A DNA stretch of 64,000 nt, from positions 992,001-1,056,000 of the forward strand of contig NZ_CP080598.1 in the NCBI RefSeq assembly GCF_019598945.1, in the 5' to 3' direction. The translations under genes and the position numbers were made by a program. This DNA is from Sphaerospermopsis torques-reginae ITEP-024. Its GTDB lineage: Bacteria; Cyanobacteriota; Cyanobacteriia; Cyanobacteriales; Nostocaceae. This document shows, piece by piece, positions 24,187 to 55,482 of this stretch; within the stretch, counting starts at the first letter, position 1; each line of letters starts with the position of its first letter. The notes beneath the pieces are model-generated. The model did not search any database, had not been told where the DNA came from, and saw nothing but the letters and a program-made list of their open reading frames with translations.

Positions 24187-24665
24187 ATGGCAATAAAACT
24201 AAGGACACGAAGGTAAGAAAAAAGAAGAGGATTTTTTTTAAATACTGATTCTGCATTTTTGCAAAATTGTGATGCTCCCGTGCTATTATAGATATAAAGT
24301 ATGATAAGGTATACCGAACTGCATGGGAAGTTATGGCAAGGTTGAAATACCCTGCGCCTGTCAAATAACATTAACAAGAAAATTTATAGATGGGTTTTTA
24401 ATAAAAACCTATCTAAAATAAAGCCCACAACTACCGAATACAGTTGTGGGTTTACAATTTTTAAATTTTTTAATAACGAATCGCAGAGGACGCAGAGAAC
24501 ACAGAGAAAAAAACATGAAAAATCTTGGAGTAGAAAGGAAGTAGGCAAACATCCTGTAAATCCTGAAATCCTGGACATCCTGATTCTGACAATTAACCAA
24601 ATATACGCTAAAATACCCACAGTAACTAACTTTTTTAACTTTTAACTTTTAATTCCTAACTACTT
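24187..24665. other. Gap downstream of the endonuclease with hairpins and repeats
   Basis: Contains a hairpin AGATGGGTTTTT/AAAACCTATCT (24388-24414), a terminator-like stem (listed separately), CGCAGAG-type repeats (24482-24508) and one unit of the ACATCCTG...CCTGGACATCC repeat (about 24550-24592) that is amplified at 49.5-50.5 kb. No gene seen; the stretch 24290-24456 could be a small transcript. Confidence 0.45.
24421..24462. terminator. Rho-independent-type hairpin
   Basis: AAGCCCACAACT (24421-24432) pairs with AGTTGTGGGTTT (24442-24453) and is followed by TACAATTTTT. A similar AAACCCACA/TGTGGGTTT-ACAATT hairpin follows the malic enzyme gene at 52971, so this is a recurrent terminator type here. 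Confidence 0.6.
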
Positions 24666-26603
24666 ATGACCATGCCCAATACCGTAGAATTTCAAGACGC
24701 TTATGATGTGATTGTAGTCGGTGCAGGTCACTCCGGTTGTGAAGCAGCTTTAGCTACCGCCCGTCTTGGTTGTCGCACTCTGCTGTTAACCCTTAACTTA
24801 GATAAAATTGCTTGGCAACCTTGTAACCCCGCAGTTGGTGGACCAGCTAAGTCCCAACTTACCCACGAAGTAGACGCTTTAGGTGGGGAAATAGGGAAAA
24901 TCGCCGATCGCACCTATTTACAAAAACGCATCCTCAACTCTTCTAGAGGTCCAGCAGTGTGGGCGTTACGGGCGCAAACCGATAAACGCGAATATGCAGC
25001 AGTCATGAAAGGAATTGTCGAAAATCAAGAAAATTTGACAATTCGTGAAGGCATGGTTACAGATTTAATCTTAGGAAAAAATGATCAAATTATAGGCGTT
25101 GAAACTTATTTTGGTGTTGCTTTTGAATGTAAAGCCGTAATTTTAACCACTGGTACGTTTTTAGGTGGAAGAATTTGGGTCGGTAACAAGTCTATGGAAG
25201 CTGGCCGCGCAGGAGAATTTGCGGCCGTGGGTTTAACGGAAACCCTTAACCGCTTGGGTTTTGAAACCGGCAGATTAAAAACAGGTACACCTGCAAGAGT
25301 TGATAAGCGTTCCGTTGACTACTCGAAAATGGAACTGCAACCAGGGGATGAAGAAGTTCGCTGGTTTAGTTTTGACCCCACAGCGTGGGTAGAACGGGAA
25401 CAAATCCCCTGTCACATGACAAGAACCACTAAAGAAACCCACAGATTAATCCAAGAAAACTTACACCTATCACCGGTTTATGGTGGTTGGGTTGATGCTA
25501 AGGGTCCCCGTTATTGTCCGAGTATTGAAGATAAAATAGTCCGCTTTGCCGATAAAGAAAGTCATCAAATCTTCATTGAACCAGAAGGACGGGATATACC
25601 AGAATTATACATCCAAGGATTTTCTACGGGGTTACCAGAAAATCTGCAAATCCTGATGTTAAGAAGTCTTCCCGGTTTGGAAAACTGCTTTATGTTGCGT
25701 CCTGCCTATGCTGTAGAGTACGATTATTTACCCGCAACTCAGTGTTATCCCACATTGATGACTAAAAAAGTTGAAGGGTTATTCTGTGCTGGACAAATTA
25801 ACGGTACTACCGGTTATGAAGAAGCTGCTGCACAGGGTTTAGTAGCGGGTGTCAATGCGGCGCGGTTTGTGCGAAATCAGGAAATGATTATTTTCTCCCG
25901 TGAGCAAAGTTACATTGGGACTTTAGTTGATGACCTGTGTACCAAGGATTTGCGTGAACCTTACCGTATGCTTACGAGTCGTTCAGAGTATCGTTTATTG
26001 CTGCGTTCAGATAATGCCGATCAACGGATGACACCGTTAGGACGGGAAATTGGTTTAATTGATGACAGACGGTGGGATTTATTTACGAGAAAGCAAGAGC
26101 AAATTATAGCCGAAAAAGAAAGATTGCATTCGACGAGAATTAAAGAACATGAAGACATAGGGAAGGCGATCGCCCAAGAAACTCAACAAGCGATCAAAGG
26201 TTCAATCACCCTGGCTGACTTGTTGCGTCGTCCGGGAATACACTATATTGATTTAGAAAGATACGCACTAAGTAACACCAGTCTCAACCAAGCAGAAAAA
26301 GAAGGGGCAGAAATAGACATTAAATATGCGGGATATTTAGCCAGACAGCAAAACCAAATTGAGCAAATAGCTCGTCAAGCCAATCGAACATTGCCAGCAG
26401 ATTTGGATTATGTAGGAATTGATACTCTTTCCAAAGAAGCCAGAGAAAAGCTGGCGAAAGTAAAACCTTTGACAATTGGGCAAGCAGCAAGAATTGGTGG
26501 TGTTAATCCTGCGGATATCAATGCTCTGTTAATTTATTTAGAAATCCGTAAAAACAAGGACCAGAATGAGTTTTCCTTATTAGCAGATACAAAAATTCAT
26601 TAA
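24666..26603 (+). CDS. mnmG: tRNA uridine 5-carboxymethylaminomethyl modification enzyme MnmG
   Basis: 645 residues (GidA). The FAD-binding motif [19 protein letters not shown] lies at residues 18-36, followed by [12 protein letters not shown], a strong family signature. The C-terminal helical MnmE-interaction and tRNA-binding domain is complete. With MnmE it modifies U34 of tRNAs. An ATG at 24672 is an equally good start. No mnmE nearby. Confidence 0.95.
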
Positions 26604-29955: not shown

Positions 29956-30087
29956 TAGGTAATGGGTAATGGGTAATGGGTAATTGGTAATTGGTAATTG
30001 GTAATGGGTAATGGGTAATTGGTAATTGGTAATTGGTAATTGGTAATTGGTAATTGGTAATTGGTAATTGGTAATGGGTAATTGGTG
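29956..30087. repeat. GGTAATT/GGTAATG STRR block
   Basis: About eighteen heptamers in tandem between purU and the DUF4340 gene, one of the longest blocks in the window. Confidence 0.9.
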
Positions 30088-32686: not shown

Positions 32687-32912
32687 TATTGGTAATGGGT
32701 AATTGGTAATGGGTAATTGGTAATTGGTAATTGGTAATTGGTAATTGGTAATTGGTAATGGGTAATTGGTAATGGGTAATTGGTAATTGGTAATTGGTAA
32801 TTGGTAATTGGTAATTGGTAATTGGTAATTGGTAATTGGTAATTGGTAATTGGTAATTGGTACAAACTTCTTTACTGTCACCTGTCACCTGTCACCTGTC
32901 ACCTGTCACCTC
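32687..32912. repeat. GGTAATT STRR plus GTCACCT heptamers
   Basis: About 23 heptamers of GGTAATT/GGTAATG (32694-32863) followed by TCACCTG heptamers (32878-32912). Read on the minus strand this has no stop in two frames and is fused to the start of the GldG-like gene. Confidence 0.9.
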
Positions 32913-48916: not shown

Positions 48917-49486
48917 ATGGAACTGACTACCACTTTTCACGCTCTCAAAGAATGGTCTGTAGCCGTAAATGCTTTAGAAAGCGGACAAACAATTATGTTA
49001 CTACGTAAAGGTGGTATTCATGAAAGAGGGGGACGCTTTACCGTTGCTCATGAACAGGTTTTACTTTATCCTACTTACGAGCATCAACAATCTTTTATGC
49101 TCAAAGCTGAATATGCTGATTTGGTGTATCCCGTTACATCAGGATGGCATCCAGAAACAACTCGCATTGGTAGTTGGGCGGAAATTACGGATATTTTACC
49201 TGTAGCGGATGAGTCTATTGTGAGTAAATTATTGCCTTTTCATATTTGGAACGAGTATTTTATTAGCGATCGCCTGAAATGGAAAGCACGTCAACCTTTA
49301 TATATTCTGTTATTACGAACTTATAAACTACCCCAGGTGCAGTATATTCCTTATTTGCCTGAATATGGTGGTTGTAAATCTTGGATTGATTTAAATCAAC
49401 AAGTGCAGTTAGAAGGTTCAAAAGCGGTTTTATCGGATGATGTTTATGGTAAGCTAGTTGAGACTATTCGTGGAATTATTGTCTGA
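48917..49486 (+). CDS. DUF1802 family protein
   Basis: 189 residues. The pattern HALKEWSVAVNALESGQTIMLLRKGGIHERGGRF...LLYPTYEHQ is diagnostic of DUF1802, of unknown function, found in cyanobacteria and others. Its stop codon lies inside the first unit of the tandem repeat that follows (GTCTGAATCAGG), so the repeat has either captured or set the C-terminus. Confidence 0.82.
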   Translation: MELTTTFHALKEWSVAVNALESGQTIMLLRKGGIHERGGRFTVAHEQVLLYPTYEHQQSFMLKAEYADLVYPVTSGWHPETTRIGSWAEITDILPVADESIVSKLLPFHIWNEYFISDRLKWKARQPLYILLLRTYKLPQVQYIPYLPEYGGCKSWIDLNQQVQLEGSKAVLSDDVYGKLVETIRGIIV

Positions 49487-50096
49487 ATCAGGATATCCAG
49501 GATTATAGGATTTACAAGATAGGAGAGAAATTAAAAATTAAAAATCTGCGTTCATCTGCGTTCATCTGCATTTCATTAGATAATTTGTCTGAATCAGGAT
49601 GTCCAGGATTTAAGGATTTACAGGATGTGGGTTTTTTTGGTGGGAGTTTTGATTTTTAGGATGTGGGGATTTTGAGGATTTTGGATTTTGTCTGAATCAG
49701 GATGTCCAGGATTTAAGGATTTACAGGATGTGGTTTTTTGGTGAGAGTTTTGATTTTTGGGATGTGGGGATTTTGAGGATTTTGAATTTTGTCTGAATCA
49801 GGATGTTCAGGATTTAAGGATTTACAGGATGTGGGTTTTTTGGTGGGAGTTTTGATTTTTGGGATGTGGGGATTTTGAGGATTTTGAATTTTGTCTGAAT
49901 CAGGATGTTCAGGATTTAAGGATTTACAGGATGTGGGTTTTTTGGTGGGAGTTTTGATTTTTGGGATGTGGGAATTTTGAGGATTTTGGATTTTGTCTGA
50001 ATCAGGATGTTCAGGATTTAAGGATTTACAGGATGTGGGTTTTTTGGTGGGAGTTTTGATTTTTGGGATGTGGGGATTTTGAGGATTTTGAATTTT
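49481..50096. repeat. Tandem array of about 102-bp units
   Basis: Units begin GTCTGAATCAGGATG at 49587, 49690, 49791, 49893 and 49995 (101-103 bp apart), with a partial, diverged unit at 49481. Each holds a 42-bp core ending in ACAGGATGTG and a GGGAGTTTTGATTTT segment. Copies differ by a few bases only. Confidence 0.9.
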
Positions 50097-50217
50097 GTTA
50101 ATTTTGTAAATTAAGCAAGATGTAATTTTACTAATTTATTAATTTTTATATTATATAAAATATAAATAATATATGATACAAATAAAAATCTTCAACACCA
50201 ACAGACGACTAATAAAT

Positions 50218-50505
50218 CACATCCTGAAAATCCTCAAATCCTGGACATCCTGATTCAGACAAATAAAAATCTTAAACACCAACAAACAACTAATAAATCA
50301 CATCCTGAAAATCCTCAAATCCTGGACATCCTGATTCAGACAAATAAAAATCTTAAACACCAACAAACAACTAATAAATCACATCCTGAAAATCCTCAAA
50401 TCCTGGACATCCTGATTCAGACAAATAAAAATCTTCAACACCAACAGACGACTAATCAATCACATCCTGAAAATCCTCAAATCCTGGACATCCTGATTCA
50501 GACAA
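50218..50505. repeat. Inverted tandem array of 81-bp units
   Basis: Units start CACATCCTGAAAATCCTC at 50218, 50299, 50380 and 50461, exactly 81 bp apart. The 42-bp core is the reverse complement of the core in the 102-bp array, with a few changes, while the rest of the unit (AAATAAAAATCTTAAACACC) is different. Confidence 0.9.
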
Positions 50506-50616
50506 ATAAAAATCTTAAACAATCAAAAATCATCAATCAAAATTCTGGACATCCTGACTTCTTGAACTCCTGACTCCTAGTATACAATAAAAATAAATCA
50601 ACCAGAGGTAATCTAA

Positions 50617-51420
50617 ATGGCAACCCAACTTAGTGAACCAACAACTGCACCGAAAACAGTCAAACAACTGGTAATCTCTTGGGAAGCTTTACCCGATGAT
50701 TTTCAGTTAGAGGATGAACCGGTGGAAAATACAGGACAACCCCTTTTAGCAGGTGCATTACGGGAAAGTTTAGAAATAGCAGGTTTTATCAAACCAGAAA
50801 TGCTAATAGTTTCTAATTTTGGACTTTGTGCGACAGTTAATGGTGAAATTGTTGTTAAAGCACCAGATTGGTTATATATACCATCTGTGAAAGAAGTTTT
50901 GCCAGAACGCAGAAGTTATACATCATATTTAGAAGGTGAATTTCCCTTAATAGTCATGGAATTTTTATCTCATAATGATGGGGGAGAATATTCTGTGAAA
51001 AGGAGTTTTCCTCCAGGAAAATGGTTTTTTTATGAACAGGTTTTACAAGTTCCTATTTACGTGATTTTTGAACCTAATGGGGGTTTATTAGAATTTTATG
51101 AATTAAAAAATGACCGCTATCAATTGCAATTACCAGATGAAAATGGTCGTCATTGGATTGAAAACATGGGGTTATTTTTAGGAACTTGGCAAGGTGAAAA
51201 AGAAGGTAGAAACGGTTATTGGTTAAGGTGGTGGGATAAAGATGGTAATTTGTTACCTTGGGGTTTAGAACAAATTGCTAAAGAAAAAGAAGTTGCAGAA
51301 CAAGAAAGACAACGTGCGGAACGAGAACGGGAACGTGCAGAACAAGAAAAACAAGAAAAGGAGAGATTAATAGCTTTTTTAGTTTCCCAAGGTATTGATC
51401 CGAATAATTTACCTACTTAA
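50617..51420 (+). CDS. Uma2 family (DUF820) endonuclease-like protein
   Basis: 267 residues. The Uma2 core spans about 60-215 with APDWLYIPS and LIVMEFLS (PD-(D/E)xK-fold positions) and PIYVIFEPNGGLLEFYEL. The C-terminal 55 residues are a charged coiled coil (RAERERERAEQEK), a frequent cyanobacterial variant. Very abundant family; the function is unproven. Start preceded by AGAGGTAATCTAA. Confidence 0.85.
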   Translation: MATQLSEPTTAPKTVKQLVISWEALPDDFQLEDEPVENTGQPLLAGALRESLEIAGFIKPEMLIVSNFGLCATVNGEIVVKAPDWLYIPSVKEVLPERRSYTSYLEGEFPLIVMEFLSHNDGGEYSVKRSFPPGKWFFYEQVLQVPIYVIFEPNGGLLEFYELKNDRYQLQLPDENGRHWIENMGLFLGTWQGEKEGRNGYWLRWWDKDGNLLPWGLEQIAKEKEVAEQERQRAERERERAEQEKQEKERLIAFLVSQGIDPNNLPT

Positions 51421-54143: not shown

Positions 54144-55482
54144 GAGGGGGCGACAAAGGAGTTAAAGAGGTTGCTGGATAAGGATCACAGCCCTCATACC
54201 CTGCTGATAAAATGGCATCTTATTGCGAACTAACGCCATCATCTCCAAGACCAATTCTTGACACTCATTCATAGAAACTATCCAACTAGAACCATACAAA
54301 CCTATCCAAAAATCACTATGTCTTCTTCTAGTTCTTTGATGTTCACTCATCCGACAAACATAAGATTGTTGTCTTTGAGATTGAGTTTTTTTACCTTGTA
54401 ACCATGCAGAAGTCATTGCTAAAGCAATCAATAAAATTATCCGCACAAGTCTATCAGGAGAAGCCTGAGAACCTTCTAAATTATAACCCCCAGTTTTACA
54501 ATCTTTAAACATAGCCTCAATCCCAAAACGTTGGCTATATATTTTGATAGTTGTTGATATATCTGTGAGATTAGTTGATAAATACCAAGGTTCTAATTCT
54601 TGCTTACCGCGATACTTTCGTTTCCAATAAACGGCTAAATTACAACGACCAAAACCTTTCTCCTGTGTGAGATTAACATTTTCATAAAATCTCCGACCTC
54701 CCGGATAAATTGGAATTGTACTCAATGGTTGGAATTTTTGTCTTTTTTCTTGAAATGTGGTATCTTTTTTCTGTCTGAAGATATACTTCAAACCCTGACC
54801 TTGTAACCATTTTCTTAATTCAGCACCATGAAATTCCCTATCGCCAATAATGACTAATTGATAATTTTTCAATAACCTAATTACCGGACGTAATACTTTT
54901 TGTTGTTCCTGGAGGTTACTGCAACCTTCTTTATCTAGCAGACACCAATATATTGGTAATGCTCTTTTTTGATAAATTACACTTGCCATCAAAATGTTAT
55001 TGTTTTTCCATTGCGTTCTGTCTATAGCAATTACCAATTGGGAGAGCGGTTTAAAGAATCGTGCTAAAATGGCTGTAATAATTGGAAACCATAACAACAC
55101 TACACTCAACTTATTAGAGTTCAAAAATCTTTGTATATGACGACGACGGCTATTTTCTTGTATTGGTAAGGGTAGATTAGCAGCCAATCTTTCTATTCTG
55201 ACTTCTTTCTGTGTTTGAAGTACCCACACCAGCATTTTTAGGGTGATGAACTGTCTGTTGCTCAGGTATTTTTCGAGGATTTCTTGATAAAATGATGGTA
55301 GCATTTATTTTTGTGGTCTTGTTATTTTGACGAGACCATTCTTTTCTACCATCAAACTGCACCCTCTAGATAACTGCTTAATAACCTCACATTATTGTCA
55401 ATAAGCACCAACTTTTTTCAGAGAGTCTATCATCTGTAACCCTTTGCCTGTCTTGGTTTCACTTTGCTTGTCGCCCCCTGAA
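54144..55482. mobile_element. Complete IS4-family insertion sequence
   Basis: 1339 bp between two GGTTGCACCTT direct repeats. Terminal inverted repeats share AGGGGGCGACAA. One transposase ORF on the minus strand fills most of it. Duplication of 10-13 bp is normal for IS4 relatives. Its intact ORF and exact duplication suggest recent movement. Confidence 0.85.
54162..55304 (-). CDS. IS4-family transposase (apparently intact)
   Basis: 380 residues. DDE residues can be placed: IAIDRTQWKNNN (first Asp, about 94), IIGDREFHG (second Asp, about 158) and YSQRFGIEAMFKDCKTGGYNLE (Glu in a Y-(2)-R-(3)-E-(6)-K arrangement, about 265). This is the fold of IS4/IS10-type cut-and-paste transposases. No frameshift or stop is seen. 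Confidence 0.88.
   Translation of the reverse strand: MLPSFYQEILEKYLSNRQFITLKMLVWVLQTQKEVRIERLAANLPLPIQENSRRRHIQRFLNSNKLSVVLLWFPIITAILARFFKPLSQLVIAIDRTQWKNNNILMASVIYQKRALPIYWCLLDKEGCSNLQEQQKVLRPVIRLLKNYQLVIIGDREFHGAELRKWLQGQGLKYIFRQKKDTTFQEKRQKFQPLSTIPIYPGGRRFYENVNLTQEKGFGRCNLAVYWKRKYRGKQELEPWYLSTNLTDISTTIKIYSQRFGIEAMFKDCKTGGYNLEGSQASPDRLVRIILLIALAMTSAWLQGKKTQSQRQQSYVCRMSEHQRTRRRHSDFWIGLYGSSWIVSMNECQELVLEMMALVRNKMPFYQQGMRAVILIQQPL

Follow-up and report, generated by a model that had tools for sequence, protein, structure and literature searches.

The window analysed here is a 64,000-base stretch (positions 992001-1056000) of the complete, 5,254,442-base chromosome of the cyanobacterium Sphaerospermopsis torques-reginae ITEP-024. 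In it, a DUF1802 gene and a Uma2-family gene enclose two tandem arrays whose units share a core in opposite orientation (Table 1). Six cores in this interval lie on the plus strand, one of them solo and five in the 102-bp array, and four lie on the minus strand in the 81-bp array. The 14-mer TCTGAATCAGGATG occurs nine times exactly in the region (five plus, four minus), with additional one-mismatch copies at 49482 and, on the minus strand, at 24576; with up to two mismatches allowed, 11 matches were found, as compared to a mean of 0.44 and a maximum of three in 100 shuffled sequences. Units are 95-99% identical within the left array and 95-100% identical within the right, whereas a left and a right unit compared with each other are only 63% identical. 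Thus, the part common to both arms is the core, and the remainder of the unit differs.

Table 1. Features at and around the two arrays, in window coordinates.
Feature	Position	Strand	Remarks
DUF1802 gene	48917..49486	+	PF08819, E 1.5e-71; ends at core junction
Divergent solo core	49482..49518	+	left of array; its TCTGA gives the DUF1802 stop codon
Other repeat dialect, ACGCAGATGA type	49544..49569	-	short stretch
Left arm	49584..50098	+	five ca. 102-bp tandem units, core at start of each (TRF: 5.0 copies, 102-bp unit, 97% matches)
AT-rich centre	50099..50177		separates the arms
Right arm	50178..50521	-	81-bp unit x 4.2, core on minus strand (TRF: 4.2 copies, 96% matches)
Uma2-family gene	50617..51420	+	adjoins right arm; PF05685, E 1.4e-07; Pfam: putative restriction endonuclease
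Isolated core, one mismatch	24576..24589	-	precedes long gene at 24666

The TRF results, the TCTGAATCAGGATG matches and the unit identities bear out the original prediction of five ca. 102-bp and four 81-bp units built on an inverted core of ca. 42 bp, with differing sequence outside the core; its count of five plus-strand cores holds for the array, but the total is six when the divergent solo copy is included. The strong hairpin potential was also found: the predicted RNA fold of 49584-50505 has an energy of -401 kcal/mol (z = -25.7 relative to 20 shuffled sequences). An Rfam covariance-model search of 49300-50700 returned no match at E up to 1. In another genome of this genus (G001, hereafter the sister genome), the syntenic locus carries the same two arrays, with ten plus and two minus cores at up to two mismatches. 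Thus, the structure is not an artefact of the window's assembly alone, an objection that the original prediction had itself named. Unit lengths differ between the arms, and the sister species has other numbers of units, consistent with the claim that the arms grew separately from inverted founders. The short stretch of ACGCAGATGA-type dialect is of a kind that also occurs as an inverted repeat next to a different gene of this genome, a GxxExxY gene (L296). A DDE_Tnp_1 transposase gene is present at 54162-55304, ca. 4 kb from the arrays, with no visible link to the core. CAGGAT-G repeats recall CsrB; a CsrB-like sponge RNA was rejected after a search for CsrA matched 0/60 genomes of the family, including this one (3/14 controls were matched).

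A search for the core elsewhere, as had been suggested, showed that, apart from the copy placed near 24.55 kb, the window has no further cores outside the array region, but that the genome has many. A 13-base core pattern with at most one mismatch matched 388 times in 5.25 Mb, versus twice for the reversed pattern, and the exact core was found 233 times, versus none for the reversed control. The copies tend to cluster, as 20 stretches of 20 kb, taken at roughly even spacing, held 13 copies, eight of them in a single stretch. The consensus of 251 copies is TTTG TCTGAATCAGGAT nTCCAGGATTTaAGGATTTACAGGAT; the outer edge is conserved at TTG, and junctions fall between TTG and TCTGAATC. Within intergenic gaps, cores are ordered as plus, as minus, or as plus followed by minus. 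Among 77 gaps with cores on both strands, counted between our own ORF calls in stretches selected for copies, 73 start with a plus and end with a minus core, one shows the reverse and three are mixed. This convergent order was seen in 33/34 gaps from the genome itself, 15/18 from the sister genome, 19/19 from other phyla and 6/6 from other cyanobacteria, which identifies the unit as an inverted-repeat, MITE-like element. The original prediction was therefore right about inverted founders, separate growth and hairpin potential, but it missed that a dispersed element is involved, which usually takes the form of an inverted pair. The window locus is very probably one copy of a mobile inverted-repeat family.

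Eighteen of 68 isolated pairs have an outer length of 84-94 bp, corresponding to two back-to-back cores, and a second group measures ca. 168-215 bp. Two short elements folded as near-perfect DNA hairpins (z about -9). No clear target-site duplication was detected in the 68 pairs (k = 2-9, 25 offsets); the largest excess, five seen versus 1.4 expected at k = 4, had no consistent offset. A standard DDE transposase is made less likely by this, but a route by single strands or by repair is not. In stretches from the genome itself, a core pointing away from the gene lies within 15 bp of 18/69 gene 3' ends and of 0/110 other gene ends, a rule that is looser in other phyla (11/39 vs 6/53). At one locus (L112, 920-1560), seven cores stand in tandem with a period of ca. 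49 bp and the sister species has a single one (L081, 2830-2940), indicating that arrays grow with different unit lengths. A second small repeat, of the TGGTTACTGAGCG.. type, is nested in the core directly after TCTGAATCAGGATGTC at three places (L070 ca. 11621, L079 ca. 15810, L089 ca. 15500).

The DUF1802 gene of the window is about eight codons shorter than the sister copy. In all 13 relatives' loci with a visible gene end, the gene runs on for several codons, in 12 of them after a TTG at that point (three more loci have no anchor and are outside the 13). In the window, the core follows directly on ATTATTG, and its TGA is the new stop codon; in the sister genome, the array starts ca. 65 bp further on, past this point. 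Evidently, the window gene lost its last codons exactly at the core and now stops inside it. A second exact core junction was found in the sister genome; in the present genome, a core stands 49 bp beyond the corresponding point, and that junction would be explained equally well by an insertion on this side.

Genes located between cores differ in order and content between the two species. At one pair of loci (L070/L080), the order of gene blocks is A-B-C in one species but C-A in the other, and the extra blocks differ; cores are present at most ends of blocks, and the end joining the host gene to C in the sister has only a degenerate remnant. Of 113 cassette genes, 112 were scanned (one with unknown bases was omitted). 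Among the 25 of 121 families listed for them were PIN (9), HicA (4), ParE (3), HEPN (3), Gp49 (2), HigB (2), Phd (2) and other toxin-antitoxin families, as well as seven kinases. For 131 control genes, no such toxin-antitoxin family had at least two members among the 25 of 193 families listed, which included Uma2 (2) and AAA_21 (3), the description of the latter mentioning the AbiEii toxin. These controls, drawn from the present genome only, were 150 genes less ten of great length and the nine at the end of the random list, and the 131 core-adjacent genes scanned, which came also from G001, were 150 less 19 long ones. The Pfam families of neighbours rest on cyanobacterial genes, with 106 neighbours from other phyla outside that scan.

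We also found the core well beyond this genus. Matches to a pattern with 20 fixed bases included, among those listed, loci in Desulfamplus, Pontibacter and other Bacteroidota, Poribacteria, Dehalococcoidia and Latescibacterota, with further loci in Cloacimonadota, Thioploca, Methylomonas and Chlorobiaceae, and the longer motif is recognizable in most of the copies inspected. All 42 other-phylum genomes examined, which were picked because the pattern matched them (one locus of 43 was left out), are multi-copy, with 4-726 copies each and none for the reversed control. Judged by these matches, the element has a scattered distribution over seven or more bacterial phyla. The longer pattern was present in 3/99 genomes of a Bacteroidota sample, one of these being the sample centre, and at least ten copies were present in 14 of 291 cyanobacterial genomes, all from one family. 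Metagenome bins are among the core-bearing genomes, and contamination could account for individual cases there, but it does not easily explain the isolates, namely Pontibacter, Desulfamplus magnetovallimortis and the cyanobacteria. No core was matched in 50,697 phage records, and three plasmid records contain it, all from Dolichospermum or Anabaena. On one of these, pANA02 of Anabaena sp. 90, the core (L237, 5001-5043) lies between avd and an RNA-directed DNA polymerase gene, a layout like that of a diversity-generating retroelement. In a Chlorobiaceae genome, a 92-bp element of two back-to-back cores (L320, 663-754) sits inside a long ORF, by eye a restriction-specificity-like gene, and leaves its reading frame open. 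A variant core, TCTGAATCATGAT, stands at 2474 and 6078 of a Methylomonas locus (L190) beside two genes that by eye resemble Rpn-type nucleases and share identical first 70 residues. In two Pontibacter genomes, short genes that by eye resemble DUF559 nucleases (L118, 4762-5133; L157, 4182-4538) lie less than 290 bp from a core.

Genes of the GxxExxY family (PF13366) recur beside cores in unrelated genomes. PF13366 was found in 36/46 core-bearing genomes and in 39/80 core-free Bacteroidota, i.e., those without a match to a longer, 23-base pattern (p = 0.001), a weak contrast because the two sets differ in phylum. Among the 30 best-scoring GxxExxY loci, one per genome, seven have an exact core within 1.5 kb versus 1.34 expected from core density, and five, two of them in Pontibacter, are flanked by cores on both sides. 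Units of the form arm-GxxExxY-arm exist, as putative gene-bearing elements with a total length of about 535-615 bp. In 119 core-selected stretches, all five GxxExxY ORFs found have cores within 400 bp; this search used a model built from core-flanked proteins. Among 94 proteins of the PF13366 family, the catalytic residues E, D, ExK and QxxxY are conserved in 99% or more, which fits a predicted active nuclease of the RecB/Cas4 type. A structure model of the nuclease was too poor for use (mean pLDDT 48.2), and no sequence relative was found in the PDB at E up to 1. A search for viral relatives of the core-clade nuclease gave 49 stretches matching the pattern, none of them confirmed.

The association extends to repeats other than the core. 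Inverted repeats were detected in the flanks of GxxExxY genes at 24/26 loci from core-bearing and 11/20 from core-free genomes (35/46 together), as compared to 23/130 and 10/100, respectively, for swapped-flank controls, 0/28 for PIN genes and 24/342 for random genes. With truncated or N-holding loci removed, the test used 26/30 and 20/20 GxxExxY, 28/30 PIN and 25/30 23S_rRNA_IVP loci. At a looser periodicity threshold, a lag of 9 was seen in 25% of 52 core-bearing and 10% of 40 core-free flanks, versus 3% for random (400) and 2% for PIN flanks (56); under the strict threshold, GxxExxY flanks gave little signal, with no lag above 3%. The repeats also vary with the protein. TCTGAAy-type repeats accompany 36/41 GFQE-type proteins; the 32 GLLE-type proteins have CRCRGAG or CRCRAAG repeats in 18 cases, CRCRGAT in two and TCTGAAy in none; and the 18 GFLE-type proteins have CRCRGAT in eight, one each of two other types, and otherwise no assigned type. 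These dialect classes were made after the repeats had been seen, with precedence given to the TCTGAAy classes, and leave 27/94 proteins without a dialect; the absence of CRCRGA types among GFQE proteins is therefore partly by construction, but the single TCTGAAy case among GFLE and its absence among GLLE proteins are not. If each nuclease clade has its own dialect, nuclease and arm would diverge together.

On a tree of the 94 proteins (136 columns, quick search, 35/91 inner branches open), the 19 core-flanked ones need two changes, as compared to a shuffled mean of 17.6 (0/500), and so form nearly one clade, spanning seven phyla. The other dialects need 8-10 changes each, less clean than the core but still below shuffled values. 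Four of the 94 proteins had been chosen for a nearby core; a k-mer Mantel test on the other 90, which uses no hand-made classes, gave r = 0.35 overall and 0.16 for distant pairs (each 0/2000 permutations), a result that is weaker than the class-based one but clear. The 19 core-flanked proteins come from what we take to be Cyanobacteriota, Bacteroidota (including Chlorobiaceae), Poribacteria, Latescibacterota, Desulfobacterota, Chloroflexota and Gammaproteobacteria. An identity of 73% between a protein of Dolichospermum and its counterpart in a Mucilaginibacter metagenome bin points to transfer.

Within cyanobacteria, the copy number of the core tracks the core clade of the nuclease. Among 80 genomes, this clade, defined as a best hit at least 65% identical (a line drawn after the hits had been seen, in a gap from 69% to 58%), is present in 8/8 with 82-535 cores, in 0/7 with 14-73, and in 1/65 with fewer than ten. 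It thus occurs in 8/15 genomes with at least ten cores versus 1/65 with fewer (p = 1.8e-6). The copy-number separation is complete, also inside one genus, where genomes have 97-535 cores with the clade and 38-73 without. GxxExxY genes of other clades show no such link (4/7 vs 22/64, p = 0.41). In one genome (G244), the closest copy of the nuclease has an internal stop, and a second copy (75%) has none. Cores without the gene are found as well: 10/46 core-bearing genomes have no PF13366 match, and in the seven cyanobacterial genomes with 14-73 cores and no clade member the gene may have been lost, or another enzyme may work. The tracking could also run in reverse, with more copies giving more chances to carry the gene. 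The gene is absent from most core copies seen, and its presence in 39/80 core-free Bacteroidota is a point against a driver role, as is the small share of best-scoring GxxExxY loci near an exact core (7/30). No clean filled/empty pair was found for the whole element.

Weighing these patterns, we lean towards the reading that the two arrays are enlarged arms of one element copy and that a GxxExxY nuclease drives its spread. The basic element consists of two inverted cores, TTG|TCTGAATCAGGATnnnCAGGATTnnAGGATTnnCAGGAT, around a short or AT-rich middle, and in a gene-bearing form the arms enclose a small nuclease gene of the GxxExxY family (PF13366). The nuclease would recognize the arm repeats and nick or cut at the outer TTG edge, after which copies with or without the gene could be copied or repaired into new places in trans. 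Later, recombination between direct cores would expand the arms into arrays, and the same recombination would shuffle genes located between copies. More broadly, and more tentatively, GxxExxY proteins might be the mobilizing nucleases of widespread tiny elements, in which a RecB/Cas4-like gene lies between inverted arms of ca. 9-bp repeats. Each clade would have a specific dialect (TCTGAAyC..GATT with GFQEVIY, CRCRGAT with GFLEKVY, CRCRGAG or CRCRAAG with GLLESAY), arm-only copies would make up large dispersed families, and a parallel system of 23S_rRNA_IVP genes and 7-bp repeats may exist. Small proteins of a large family that has received little study would thereby gain a possible role, and a way would be offered for toxin-antitoxin genes to be collected and rearranged without integrons. 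The coupling of clade and dialect makes the transfer mechanism of intergenic repeats directly testable. A literature search, mostly confined to sources outside subscription, found no paper on the core or on GxxExxY as a mobilizer.

It is also possible, if rather doubtful, that the core belongs to a MITE or REPIN-like family of the ordinary kind, which an unrelated transposase moves in trans, with the GxxExxY, toxin-antitoxin and Uma2 genes as caught cargo. In favour of this, the genes enclosed by cores are of many kinds (PIN 9, HicA 4, ParE 3, HEPN 3 and kinases 7 of 112, among the 25 of 121 families listed), and 10/46 core-bearing genomes have no PF13366; moreover, parentless MITEs are described in the relative Anabaena sp. 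90, in the accessible part of that report (PMC3542288). However, no transposase was seen between inverted cores when the intervals were viewed by eye, though not all of them one by one (a single transposase-like gene lies between two direct cores, at L060), and the 68 isolated pairs have no clear target-site duplication. Cargo status also leaves unexplained why nuclease clades have dialects of their own, why PIN genes have no such flanks, and why copy number tracks the core clade.

We consider it improbable that no dedicated enzyme is involved and that cores act as portable homology, with cassettes moving by homologous recombination between direct copies and crossing species by DNA uptake. The junction inside the DUF1802 gene shows no prior homology beyond ATTG, isolated copies are numerous in unrelated genomes, and the outer edge is conserved at TTG, all of which speak against this explanation despite the arrays of 95-100% identical units, the changes in unit number and block order between species, and the many gene pairs flanked by direct repeats. 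A selected function, as a bidirectional terminator, a long hairpin RNA or a protein-binding array, would fit the fold (z = -25.7) and the cores within 15 bp of 3' ends (18/69 vs 0/110 in this genome, 11/39 vs 6/53 in other phyla), but is highly improbable given the patchy presence in related genomes, the shortened DUF1802 gene and the lack of an Rfam match. Finally, inverted repeats this long can extrude in principle and long identical arrays are hard to assemble, but neither a mere cruciform or fragile site nor an artefact of assembly is credible to any extent when a second assembly has the same structure and convergent pairs are the common form.

The preferred reading, an inverted-repeat element spread by a GxxExxY nuclease, has partial precedents. 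Small mobile repeats in cyanobacteria were reportedly described by Elhai et al. in 2008. Small, repeat-bounded, reordered cassettes, often of toxin-antitoxin genes, are also represented by the pdif modules of Acinetobacter plasmids, the toxin-antitoxin cassettes of integrons and the dRS3/NIME elements of Neisseria; these use other sites and enzymes, whereas the present element is chromosomal and crosses phyla. The accessible part of the Anabaena sp. 90 report describes type II MITEs of 77-541 bp, with 147 complete or partial copies that are mostly intergenic inverted repeats; they are unlike the ends of the genome's insertion sequences, and the authors suggest an autonomous mechanism (PMC3542288). 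The window element likewise behaves as a parentless MITE, but those descriptions, in the part available and compared as such, include no nuclease partner, tandem arms or cross-phylum repeat (PMC3542288). For the hupL MITE of Candidatus Thiomargarita nelsonii, its authors propose, in the portion of the paper that was accessible, a link with PD-(D/E)XK_2 endonuclease genes and not with a transposase of the DDE or HUH type; its ends consist of a 10-bp direct and a 19-bp inverted repeat, and the nuclease family is another one (PMC4853749). REPIN/RAYT (TnpA-REP) elements (PMC3116915, PMC6006769) resemble the present element in being intergenic, inverted pairs of short repeats; the present element also has no clear target-site duplication, and a single core differs in having no GTAG-type 5' tag (PMC6006769).

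A further likeness is to the TAACTGA heptamers of Beggiatoaceae, cyanobacteria and Bacteroidetes, for which the author, in the accessible text, suspects horizontal transfer by a mechanism that is not evident (PMC4679880). Like the core, these are short intergenic repeats with a patchy, cross-phylum distribution, but their period is 7 bp, and in our data 7-bp inverted repeats surround 23S_rRNA_IVP genes rather than GxxExxY. At the looser threshold, lag 7 was seen in 62% of 50 IVP flanks, versus 12% of random and 4% of PIN flanks. IVP genes and heptamer repeats could possibly form a parallel element family; if true, this would explain the short tandem heptamers of cyanobacteria. Among the four-helix 23S_rRNA_IVP genes at L373-L402, 17/25 loci have inverted-repeat flanks, mostly with a 7-bp period. 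The window itself is rich in heptamer arrays of up to 25 copies, e.g., at 29958-30086 and 32688-32862.
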